Shown here piece after piece: positions 1 through 64,000 of a stretch of 64,000 nucleotides of DNA (position 1 is its first letter; each line of letters begins with the position of its first letter). Position numbers and translations under genes: made by a program. The notes under the pieces were generated by a model. The model was not told the origin of the DNA, made no database searches, and worked only from the letters and a program-made list of their open reading frames with translations. Location of the stretch: contig NZ_AOJG01000012.1 of NCBI RefSeq assembly GCF_000337375.1, positions 98,685 to 162,684 of the forward strand, in the 5' to 3' direction. Origin of the DNA: Halorubrum lipolyticum DSM 21995. Lineage in GTDB: Archaea > Halobacteriota > Halobacteria > Halobacteriales > Haloferacaceae.

Positions 1-155
1 CGGTCGCCCTCCGCGTTGCTCCGGGCGACCGACTCCAGCGAGGGACCGAAGGTCCCTCTGGCAGCCGGCGCGACGCGCCGGCGACCTCGCGCGGCGCTCC
101 TCGCGCCCGATGGGCGCTCGGAGGCGCGCGCCACCGCACTCGTCAGTTATAAGCG
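1..155 (-). repeat. Intergenic hairpin element, copy 1 (cut by window start)
   Basis: Read on the minus strand, this begins with a TATA-like CTTATAACTG (about 155-143), then GCGGTGGCGCGCGCC. A hairpin at 117-103 follows with arms GCGCCC and GGGCGC, then GCGCCGCGCGAGG. Next come two compact hairpins (82-64, arms GCCGGCGC; 58-40, arms GAGGGACC with a GAA-type loop) and a larger hairpin (31-1, arms GGTCGCCC and GGGCGACC). The same order of blocks recurs in the copies near 10.4, 39.4, 61.3 and 63.9 kb, with different stem bases but pairing kept. It lies 96 bp past the stop of the 251-985 gene, on the same strand. No coding capacity is apparent. Function is unknown; a structured RNA or a dispersed non-autonomous repeat are the main options. 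Confidence 0.7.
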
Positions 156-250
156 ATCGTCGCAGTCGCTCATGTCTTTTTAAATACGCTCTTGCCGCCA
201 CCGATCTGCAATACTCACTCCCGCTATCGCCCACAATCGTTTCTCAGCGC

Positions 251-10058: not shown

Positions 10059-10082
10059 GTCGATGTTAGTGTCGCCGTCGGC

Positions 10083-10444
10083 TGTTTATACGTGATTGGT
10101 AACTGTGGATCGGCGGTGAACGCCTCCAAAGCCCCAGCCGATCACTTATAAATGCTTGTTGGCGGAGCGACGACGAACACCTCCAAAGCCCCAGCCGGCG
10201 ACGACTCGCGCGACTCGCTGCGCTCCTCGCTCAGTCGCTATCGCTCCTTCGCTGCGGTGCTTTCGTCGTCGAGCGTCGTCCTCGCCGGCTGCCCCTTTGA
10301 GTCCCACCCGACCGCACAGCCTCACGCCTCCCCAGCCTCGTCAGTCGCCCTCCACGTTGTTCCGGGCGACTGACTCCCTCGCGCGTGCTCCTCGTGGCCT
10401 ATCGGCCACTCGCAGGCACGCGCCACCGCACCGCATTTATAAAC
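10083..10444 (-). repeat. Intergenic hairpin element, copy 2 (most complete)
   Basis: On the minus strand, in order: TTTATAAATG (10444-10435), GCGGTGGCGCGTGCC, hairpin 1 at 10409-10394 (GTGGCC/GGCCAC), CACGCGCGAGGGA, hairpin 2 at 10374-10340 (11-bp arms GTCAGTCGCCC and GGGCGACTGAC), GAGGCTGGGGAGG, and GTGGGACTCAAAGGGG (from 10307). A long-range stem then pairs GCCGGCGA near 10285 with TCGCCGGC near 10195, and GGGGCTTTGGAGG closes it. Two tail units 57 bp apart follow, each carrying CGGCTGGGGCTTTGGAGG, with ATTTATAAGTGA between them and GTATAAAC at the end. It begins 13 bp after the aroA stop on the same strand. Block order and spacing match the copy at 39.4 kb almost exactly. Unknown function. 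Confidence 0.8.
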
Positions 10445-38865: not shown

Positions 38866-39399
38866 ATGAGCGACGCAGCGGCCCTCGCGGACCTGCGGAC
38901 CGGCGCCGACTACCAGTTCGGTGCGGGCGCGGGCGACGCGCTGTTCCCCCCGGACGAGACGCTGACTCTCCGGCGGTCGAGCGGCGGCCGCCCCCGACAG
39001 GTGATCGTCGGCGACGTGGACGACGACCCCGGCAGCCCGGAGGGCGACCGGCTCGTCTCGTACGGCACGGACGGACGGTTCACCCTCGGGATCGCCGGCG
39101 GGACCCGGATCCGCGAGGCGTTCGCGGCCCCGCGTCACCGGATGGTCGTCGGGGAGGAGAGCGAGCCGTTCGTCCGCGAGGGGCGCAACGCGTTCGCGAA
39201 GTTCGTGACCGCGGCCGACGACGGGATCCGCCCCGGCGACGAGGTGCTCGTCGTCGACGAGGACGACGCGCTGTTCGCGGTCGGGCGGGCCGAGCTCTCC
39301 GGCGCCGAGGCCGAGCACTTCGCGAGCGGGGTCGCCGTGAAGGTGCGGAACGGCGCGGGAAGCGACGGGAGCGAGAACGCGGACGGAGCCGGCGAGTAG
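38866..39399 (+). CDS. PUA domain protein
   Basis: 177-residue protein. The N-terminal about 75 residues are a small alpha/beta part (LADLRTGADYQFGAGAGDALF, PRQVIVGDVDDD). A C-terminal PUA domain is visible as RHRMVVGEESEPFVREGRNAFAKFV-type residues, GDEVLVVDEDDALFAVGRAEL, and a last strand near GVAVKVR. The arrangement resembles proteins related to archaeal tRNA-guanine transglycosylase, so RNA binding is likely. A separate function has not been assigned to my knowledge. The acidic tail is low complexity. It follows the large regulator by 70 bp; hairpin element copy 3 starts 12 bp after its stop, and a T-run at 39424-39430 may act as a terminator. Confidence 0.82.
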   Translation: MSDAAALADLRTGADYQFGAGAGDALFPPDETLTLRRSSGGRPRQVIVGDVDDDPGSPEGDRLVSYGTDGRFTLGIAGGTRIREAFAAPRHRMVVGEESEPFVREGRNAFAKFVTAADDGIRPGDEVLVVDEDDALFAVGRAELSGAEAEHFASGVAVKVRNGAGSDGSENADGAGE

Positions 39400-39410
39400 C
39401 GCGCACTCTC

Positions 39411-39783
39411 TATTTTAAGACGGTTTTTTAGGACTCGTGTGCGGTGGCGCGCGCCTGTGAGCGGCCGTTAGGCCGCGAACAGCACCGCGCGAGGGACGCG
39501 GTGAGCGCTCGAAGAGCGCGAACCGCGAGGCTGGGGAGGCGTGAGGCTGCGGTTGCTGTGCGGGGTGGGACTCAAAGGGGCAGCCGGCGAGGCGGGCACA
39601 GGCGACGCAAGCACCGCAGCAAAGGAGCAGTAGCGACTGAGCGAGGAGCGCAGCGAGAGTGCGCCCGCCTCGCCGGCTGGGGCTTTGGAGGTCTTCACCG
39701 CAGAGTTACTGGCAATCATTTATAAGTGAGCGGCTGGGCCTTTGGAGGCGCTCTCCCCGATCTACGATCGGCTATTTATAAGC
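39411..39783 (+). repeat. Intergenic hairpin element, copy 3
   Basis: Starts with AT boxes (TATTTTAAGA at 39411-39420, GGTTTTTTAGG at 39422-39432), then GCGGTGGCGCGCGCC. Hairpin 1 (39461-39476, GCGGCC/GGCCGC) and GCACCGCGCGAGGGA follow. Hairpin 2 (39497-39527) has CGCGGT and GCGCTC stems around a GAA loop. Next come GAGGCTGGGGAGGCGTGAGG and ACTCAAAGGGG. A long-range stem pairs GCCGGCGAGG at 39583-39592 with CCTCGCCGGC at 39668-39677, and GGGGCTTTGGAGG closes it. Two tail units 57 bp apart are separated by ATTTATAAGTGAG and followed by CTATTTATAAGCG. Between the long-range arms, GAGCGAGGAGCGCAGCGAG is shared with copy 2. No open frame of interest. Confidence 0.8.
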
Positions 39784-49593: not shown

Positions 49594-49806
49594 CGTATTT
49601 AAATAGCCGTGAGCGATAGCGACGCTGCTTATAAATAGCAACGCGGCGGCGTCGCCGCCGTCAAAGCGAGCGCCAGGGCGGGGGCGAAGCTCTCGCTCGC
49701 AACCGGCGCGACACGCCGGTGACAGCGAGGCGCGAAGCGCCTCTGACAGCCGGACGTAGGCCGGCGACGAGGCCGGTCCGTTGGAGGCGTTCGCCGTCGA
49801 TCCGTC
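49594..49806 (+). repeat. Intergenic hairpin element, copy 4 (divergent)
   Basis: Upstream GTATTTAAAT (about 49595-49604) and CTTATAAATAG (49628-49638) are followed by a run of compact hairpins: CGGCGGCG/CGCCGCCG at 49644-49660, ACCGGCG/CGCCGGT at 49702-49720, GAGGCGC/GCGCCTC around GAA at 49727-49743, and GCCGG/CCGGC at 49749-49764. TGACAGC spacers separate several of them. The end, GTCCGTTGGAGGCGTTCGCCGTCGATCC-like, recalls the tail GGCTTTGGAGGCGTTCACCGCCGATCC-like of copy 2. The GCGGTGG core and hairpins 1 and 2 are not recognisable, so membership is weaker. The 168 bp before it (49426-49593) hold no gene I can see; it precedes the 3' end of the bc gene cluster. Confidence 0.55.
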
Positions 49807-49918
49807 GTCGACCGTTCATGGCTGAGGCAGACGGATCGAAGCGCGGAGCCGACACTCCGACAGAAAAGGGGGCAGAGGGTGAACGATCGAAACCGGAGCG
49901 GTCGCGGTCAGTTCGCAG

Positions 49919-61260: not shown

Positions 61261-61680
61261 GTATTTAACTGAATTCGAGTGAAGACGACGATCCCTTATA
61301 AATGACGAGTGCGATGGCGCGCGCCCGTGAGCGGCCTTCAGGCCGCGAACGGCGCCGCGCGAGGGAGTCGGCCACTCGGAGCGAAGCGGAGAGTGGCCGA
61401 CGAGGCTGGGGAGGTGCGAGGTGCGGGGCGGGGCGGTGCGGTCCCGCGAACGGAATGAGCGGGAGCACGGAAGTCGCAGCCCGCGCAGCGAACGAAGTGA
61501 GCGAGCAGGACCAGGGCGAGATCGAAGGTCTCGCTTGCTCACGCGGTGACACCGCGTGACCGTCTTCCGGTGGTCGGGTGGGACTCAAAGGGGCTGGGGC
61601 TTTGGAGGTGTTCACCGCAGCGGCGTCGATCACGGATACACAGCCGCCAGCAATATCACTCGATCGCTTATAAATAACCG
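61261..61680 (+). repeat. Intergenic hairpin element, copy 5 (with inserted hairpin array)
   Basis: GTATTTAACTG (61261) and CCTTATAAATG (61294-61304) are followed by GCGATGGCGCGCGCC. Hairpin 1 is at 61331-61346 (GCGGCC/GGCCGC, loop TTCA) and hairpin 2 at 61367-61401 (GTCGGCCACTC/GAGTGGCCGAC). GAGGCTGGGGAGG comes next, then an insertion with extra hairpins, including GCGAGA/TCTCGC-type at 61516-61534 and CACGCGGT/ACCGCGTG at 61540-61558. The tail is GTGGGACTCAAAGGGGCTGG, then GGGCTTTGGAGG and TTCACCGC; here the long-range arm is missing and the two conserved blocks are joined directly. A further CGCTTATAAATAACC lies at 61665-61679. The other bases from 61090 to 61764 show no gene. Confidence 0.78.
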
Positions 61681-61764
61681 TTTCACCAATCCGCTATACC
61701 CACCCCCGCTATCGATCAAAAAGCGCTCATCAGCGAACGGCTGTCTCACGCCGTATGTGCCCGA

Positions 61765-63908: not shown

Positions 63909-64000
63909 GGTTTATAAATCGACTTTTGAATCCGGAGATGTGCGGTGGCGCGTGCCGACGGGCAGCCGTCAGGCTGCGAGTCGCGCGCGAGGCTGGGGCT
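63909..64000 (+). repeat. Intergenic hairpin element, copy 6 (cut by window end)
   Basis: GGTTTATAAATCG (63909-63921) is followed by a 22-bp spacer and GCGGTGGCGCGTGCC. Hairpin 1 is at 63962-63977 with arms GCAGCC and GGCTGC around GTCA. GCGCGCGAGGCTGGGG then follows directly, so hairpin 2 is missing in this copy. The element continues past the window end. It sits 25 bp after the hydroquinone-reductase-like gene, on the same strand. Confidence 0.72.

Follow-up and report, generated by a model that had tools for sequence, protein, structure and literature searches.

The window analysed here, a stretch of 64,000 nucleotides of contig NZ_AOJG01000012.1 of Halorubrum lipolyticum DSM 21995, contains five copies of a multi-copy element, and the two hairpins described in an earlier note on this DNA form the 5' domain of that element. 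A model of hairpin 1 (R1) matches exactly five sites in the window with E-values from 9e-12 to 3e-9, the next best match having an E-value of 0.016. The copies and their parts are given below; R2 is the model of the 3' domain, and features without a score or pattern match were read from the sequence.

1-233, minus strand: copy A.
1-31, minus strand: hairpin 2 of copy A, cut by the window edge.
40-82, no strand assigned: GC-rich double hairpin inserted in copy A.
85-137, minus strand: 5' domain of copy A, P1 with hairpin 1 (103-117, arms GCGCCC/GGGCGC); R1 68.9 bits.
208-233, minus strand: left terminal inverted repeat of copy A (pattern match, one mismatch; copy absent from the relative G030).
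About 10070-10430, minus strand: copy B.
10184-10308, minus strand: 3' domain of copy B with G tracts, CAAAG/CTTTG clamp and the long hairpin P3; R2 117.7 bits, E 3.8e-23; supported by covariation.
10327-10339, minus strand: motif GAGGCTGGGGAGG of copy B, a 13-mer that 52 of 59 own copies carry without change.
10340-10374, minus strand: hairpin 2 (P2) of copy B, conserved in position and replaced in sequence between copies and species.
10377-10429, minus strand: 5' domain of copy B, P1 with hairpin 1 (10394-10409, arms GTGGCC/GGCCAC) and a tandem GA/GA internal loop; R1 72.5 bits, E 6.5e-11; supported by covariation.
About 39430-39760, plus strand: copy C.
39441-39494, plus strand: 5' domain of copy C, P1 with hairpin 1 (39461-39476, arms GCGGCC/GGCCGC); R1 77.2 bits, E 9.4e-12.
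39498-39526, plus strand: hairpin 2 of copy C, of the GA/GA type; partial R1 match at 39499-39526.
39527-39539, plus strand: motif GAGGCTGGGGAGG of copy C.
39564-39687, plus strand: 3' domain of copy C with P3; R2 108.1 bits, E 4.2e-21.
39675-39760, plus strand: tail unit of copy C, TGGGGCTTTGGAGG..TTTATAA, in tandem.
About 61300-61720, plus strand: copy D.
61311-61364, plus strand: 5' domain of copy D, P1 with hairpin 1 (61331-61346, arms GCGGCC/GGCCGC); R1 71.3 bits.
61367-61401, plus strand: hairpin 2 of copy D.
61576-61599, plus strand: core of copy D without P3, GGGTGGGACTCAAAGGGGCTGGGG, a canonical quadruplex motif; R2 30.4 bits at 61577-61604.
61693-61718, minus strand: right terminal inverted repeat of copy D (pattern match, one mismatch; copy absent from G030).
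63942-64000, plus strand: copy E.
63942-63992, plus strand: 5' domain of copy E with hairpin 1 (63962-63977, arms GCAGCC/GGCTGC), shared with G030, with P2, the motif following P2 and P3 lost; R1 63.3 bits.

All of these hairpin 1 arms had been reported before and were found again on reading the sequence, as were the hairpin 2 arms of copies A, B and D. The different stem at about 39498-39526 in copy C, previously called unrelated, in fact follows the plan of hairpin 1 (GCGGT-GA-GCGCTC-GAA-GAGCGC-GA-ACCGC) and partially matches its model. Throughout the H. lipolyticum genome (3.43 Mb, 41 contigs) the element is dispersed about 60 times. The 5' motif has 64 genomic matches compared with three for a reversed control pattern, which together with the R1 E-values in the window rules out chance, and a DNA search with copy C as the query gave 59 matches; the own copies were gathered by search, and the set may be incomplete.

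On the G-rich strand, the order from 5' to 3' is a TATA-like box, GCGGTGGC, P1, P2, GAGGCTGGGGAGG, GGG-Y-GGG-ACTCAAA-GGGG, P3, GGGG-CTTTGGAGG and a tail unit. P1 consists of hairpin 1 and carries a tandem GA/GA loop that is invariant, being kept in nearly all copies and in one orientation. Hairpin 2 exists as a few recurring types that replace one another as a whole, both between copies and between species, and includes GCGAAGC loops, which are known as very stable DNA mini-hairpins. The consensus of the 3' core is GGG-Y-GGG-ACTSRAA-GGGG-(P3 hairpin)-GGGG-CTTTS, in which AAAG and CTTT pair as a clamp. Of 66 copies, 50 carry the TATA-like box, in most cases at a distance of 14-16 nt upstream of GCGG; the background is 0.6% of random 40-bp windows, and the orthologous copies of some species are without the box. 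The tail unit of about 57-66 bp carries GGGGCTTTGGAGG and a TATA-like box and is tandem in some copies (L007 and window 39675-39760). In most copies (e.g. 10184-10308) the tip of P3 is a ladder of 2-bp steps, variable in number, with symmetric GA/GA mismatches between them. Rarely, the inner part of a hairpin runs opposite to the usual orientation; L044 shows this in hairpin 2 and L073 at the tip of P3. GC-rich double hairpins (e.g. GAGGGACC..GGTCCCTC followed by CCGGCG..CGCCGG) are inserted at several sites within the element, in the window at 40-82, about 49660-49775 and about 61440-61570 and elsewhere in L018, L022, L081, L088, L233, L306 and L308, in Halorubrum as well as in other families. 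In appearance they are close to the double-hairpin elements of mitochondria, and they may represent a second mobile family. Across the window as a whole, three adjacent pairs were counted against 0-1 in shuffles, too few for a claim of enrichment. At about 49600-49830 lies a degenerate remnant of the element, in which two double hairpins remain together with a TATA-like box and a worn tail (GTTGGAGGCGTTCGCCGTCGATCC).

The earlier note had proposed that both hairpins carry compensatory base changes between copies. This holds for hairpin 1, where covariation is strong; in hairpin 2, the whole stem rather than single bases is often replaced. Among 57 own copies, 98.0% of the P1 pairs are standard, compared with 81.5 +/- 0.8% after shuffling, and the covariation score is 0.458 compared with 0.163 +/- 0.011 (none of 500 shuffles was as high), falling to 0.04-0.08 when one arm is slid by 1-3 columns. 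Both-sided changes occur at nine of the 15 pairs, with several pair types per position and G-U intermediates. Similarly, P1 in 47 distinct copies from other Halorubrum genomes, in an alignment fitted to the model, pairs at 99.3% with a score of 0.466. At one orthologous site, which follows the gene with its end at 39399 and was traced through 18 species, pairing reaches 98.5% compared with 81.6% in shuffled alignments, and none of 500 shuffles attains the observed score; here the arms occur as TGT/ACA, GGT/ACC, TCC/GGA, GAC/GTC and TGC/GCA, and the upper stem exists in six versions. P3 behaves likewise across families (96.7% paired compared with 76.1%; score 0.509 compared with 0.165), its pairs covarying despite intervening mismatches, and the clamp changes from CAAAG/CTTTG to GAAAG/CTTTC and GGAAG/CTTCC. 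Arm changes are thus strongly correlated in samples of more than 30 copies, as established by shuffling and by sliding one arm, which took the place of R-scape. Copy-specific inversions do not account for this pattern: flipped tips are rare, and inversion cannot preserve the non-palindromic GA/GA between two changing helices.

Pairing is thus kept while the stem letters change, which bears out the suggestion that secondary structure, of RNA or DNA, is under selection. Several features indicate that selection acts on the fold of one particular strand. In the two MAFFT alignments, G-U cells outnumber A-C cells by 44:4 in A1 (hairpin 1, about 11:1) and 39:10 in A2, a significance that is overstated since the copies are related and structure prediction favours G-U. 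The picture by position is less clear in A4 (G-U at nine pairs, A-C at 11), which like A3 and A5 was fitted to the model. Throughout, the relatedness of the sequences makes the cell counts interdependent, and C-to-T mutation biased by strand may be an alternative source of the excess. G-U far above A-C is what RNA or single-stranded DNA would show and a duplex cruciform would not, and the GA/GA loop of P1 and the GA ladder of P3, neither of which is expected of such a cruciform, point in the same direction. Moreover, copying into a perfect palindrome would erase the GA/GA mismatch, yet the mismatch is kept, as would be the case if a one-strand fold is selected. Both strands fold well (z-scores of -4.6 to -5.8), the element strand being 19-28 kcal/mol lower; folding energy is therefore weak evidence on the strand, and a choice based on it alone was dropped. 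Taken together, we regard it as virtually certain that a conserved one-strand structure is under selection. The selected molecule is probably RNA rather than single-stranded DNA.

Another conserved feature is a set of G tracts. All four GGG tracts are intact in 55 of 60 own copies, 125 of 130 copies from other Halorubrum genomes and 68 of 80 from other genera. The base directly upstream of the scanned motif is G in 59 of 60, 129 of 130 and 75 of 80 of these copies, respectively, and the next base varies. In copies of two lineages that are devoid of P3, copy D and L396 of another family, the four tracts are kept as the canonical quadruplex motifs GGGTGGGACTCAAAGGGGCTGGGG and GGGTGGGACTGAAAGGGGCCGGGGG. 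In Haloferax volcanii the K+ level is about 2.5 M, a range in which the G4 oligonucleotides that were examined proved very stable (PMC12678505). The leading structural idea, which we hold with about even confidence, is that the four tracts form a quadruplex; alternatively, they might be bound by a protein.

All 35 other Halorubrum genomes of a first sample match the element. Among the matches listed from named genomes, the exact core motif occurs only in Halorubrum records, and at strong scores the 5' domain is essentially specific to this genus. The 3' domain (R2) was identified in 95 of 116 genomes of the class Halobacteria, representing 37 of 45 genera, at one to at least 30 copies per genome. 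In a phylum-wide sample all 24 positives belong to the same order, and all genomes of other classes among those listed were negative. In L238, L302 and L318, from other haloarchaeal families, the 3' domain forms head-to-head pairs without the 5' domain. The idea of one RNA gene that occupies the same locus in the low-copy genomes was considered and rejected, as no neighbour recurs apart from one same-genus pair and one possible shared neighbour. A viral or plasmid origin was likewise rejected: phage sequences did not match the element, viral contigs did not match its 18-base pattern, and four plasmid records match.

Some copies have moved. Terminal inverted repeats (TGAKCGATAGCGGGAGT...) have 45 ends in the genome and none in the control, and every inspected pair (304-550 bp) encloses the core at near-constant spacing; in their flanks, inspected for target-site duplications, similarity runs past the 26-bp ends and blurs the exact boundaries. 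Thirteen own copies could be mapped by both flanks in G030. Nine, including B, C and E, are present at the orthologous site, one is ambiguous, and three (A, D and L016; loci L016, L042 and L052) are absent, the interval measuring 51-72 bp compared with 592-686 bp in H. lipolyticum. As all three absent copies carry terminal repeat ends, these data together indicate that the core travels in a non-autonomous element. About one third of the own copies reside in such elements, and most copies are without terminal repeats. Thus, two kinds of copy can be distinguished, young ones in terminal-repeat elements of roughly 0.3-0.55 kb and older ones at the same gene ends in many species, and we infer that the latter persisted after their terminal repeats had decayed.

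The position relative to genes, determined with a home-made gene caller, is biased: 88 of 121 neighbouring-gene flanks face the 3' end of the gene (p 6e-7), with 30 convergent and four divergent placements, as would suit a role at 3' ends. Copies lie sense to the upstream gene in 40 of 62 cases (p 0.03), which is no clear preference, and so the 3'-end bias may merely reflect tolerance of insertions away from promoters. Transcription from a promoter of its own was considered in view of the enriched TATA-like box and not adopted, as the usual archaeal spacing would place the start inside P1.

Based on these patterns, the explanation that we favour as a whole, if by a modest degree, is a structured RNA element of haloarchaea, located at the 3' ends of genes and built on a quadruplex core. 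In this view the dispersed, strand-specific structured element acts most likely as RNA, and the selected molecule would be a transcript of the G-rich strand that either reads through from the gene next to it or starts from a nearby TATA-like box. In the molar potassium inside haloarchaeal cells, which would favour such a structure, the four G tracts would fold into a quadruplex that has P3 as its duplex loop and the clamp beneath. At the 3' ends of mostly convergent genes, this knot might stop or insulate transcription or shield the RNA 3' end from exonucleases; this 3'-end role is a tentative proposal. Still more speculative is the wider notion of a class-wide mobile RNA 3'-end module with a quadruplex-duplex core in molar potassium, present in tens of copies per Halorubrum genome and carried as cargo by inverted-repeat elements.

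The strongest competitor, although improbable, is a selfish, MITE-like non-autonomous transposon whose folded strand serves only to let the element transpose or replicate as single-stranded DNA, its persistence at orthologous sites reflecting slow decay. The 45 terminal repeat ends with the core at near-constant spacing, the three insertions absent from G030 and the GCGAAGC loops in hairpin 2 are in accordance with it. However, the terminal inverted repeats suggest a DDE-type transposase, which requires no folded interior. In addition, the Y1 (IS200/IS605-like, REP-type) transposase PF01797 has no match in the own genome (the control search was positive in Haloferax volcanii and others), the phage, viral-contig and plasmid searches gave only the four plasmid records, and pairing at one orthologous site has been kept through 18 species. 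REPs are abundant and extragenic, with proposed roles in chromosome organisation and transcription termination (PMC2817692). By analogy, the GC-rich hairpin copies, which lie outside genes in their dozens and often between convergent ones, could be duplex sites read by a nucleoid or topology protein, the palindromes being cruciforms or protein sites. This we consider quite unlikely, as a cruciform explains neither the preference for G-U over A-C nor a GA/GA kept in one orientation, the complete change of stem letters leaves no duplex sequence to be recognised there, and the own genome encodes no RAYT-type transposase. That pairing arises by DNA-level homogenisation (gene conversion between copies or template switching between arms) and not from selection on the fold would agree with the wholesale swaps of hairpin 2 and the inverted tips in L044 and L073, but is very improbable and largely refuted by the GA/GA mismatch in nearly all copies, which arm-to-arm copying would make a perfect palindrome, by several pair types per position with G-U intermediates and by the covariation of mismatch-separated P3 pairs across families.

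The structured element favoured here resembles several known systems in part. REP/BIME sequences with their RAYTs also comprise dozens of mostly intergenic hairpin copies, some of which move (PMC2817692), whereas the element is 250-600 bp long, has two domains, long-range structure, strand specificity and conserved G tracts, and resides in a genome without a Y1 transposase. As in MITEs, about a third of the own copies have terminal inverted repeats, enclose no gene and are present or absent between species. In contrast to MITEs, the interior is a covarying structure and the 3' half is class-wide; terminal repeats around a short non-coding body, with presence and absence, characterise only a subset of copies. 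An autonomous partner of the inverted-repeat element was not seen in the own genome. Fungal mitochondrial GC clusters and double-hairpin elements, whose GC-rich hairpins spread, merge and shuffle, resemble the double hairpins inserted here, but they are mitochondrial and short, with 42 and 86 nt in the examples cited (PMC4478555). With large structured non-coding RNAs in Rfam the element shares covarying helices, invariant unpaired motifs and strand specificity, but it occurs in dozens of dispersed copies and not as one gene. Rfam 15 gave no match in the element at E up to 1, the single sub-threshold match in the window lying outside it. A tRNA-derived repeat was rejected since ARAGORN found no tRNA, and a C/D or H/ACA guide RNA (kink-turn) since the GA/GA loop of P1 is symmetric, without the required three-base bulge. 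In the open-access literature we found no earlier description; the element thus appears, provisionally, to be previously undescribed.

To our knowledge, haloarchaea have few known structured RNA elements apart from those that are universal. The element described here occurs in about four fifths of the sampled genomes of the class, in up to dozens of copies and with covariation visible by eye. It is a case of structured repeats spreading in a genome that lacks the Y1 transposase to be expected with REPs, and its natural variants lend themselves to tests of RNA structure, of quadruplexes at a molar K+ that is physiological, and of archaeal 3'-end formation.
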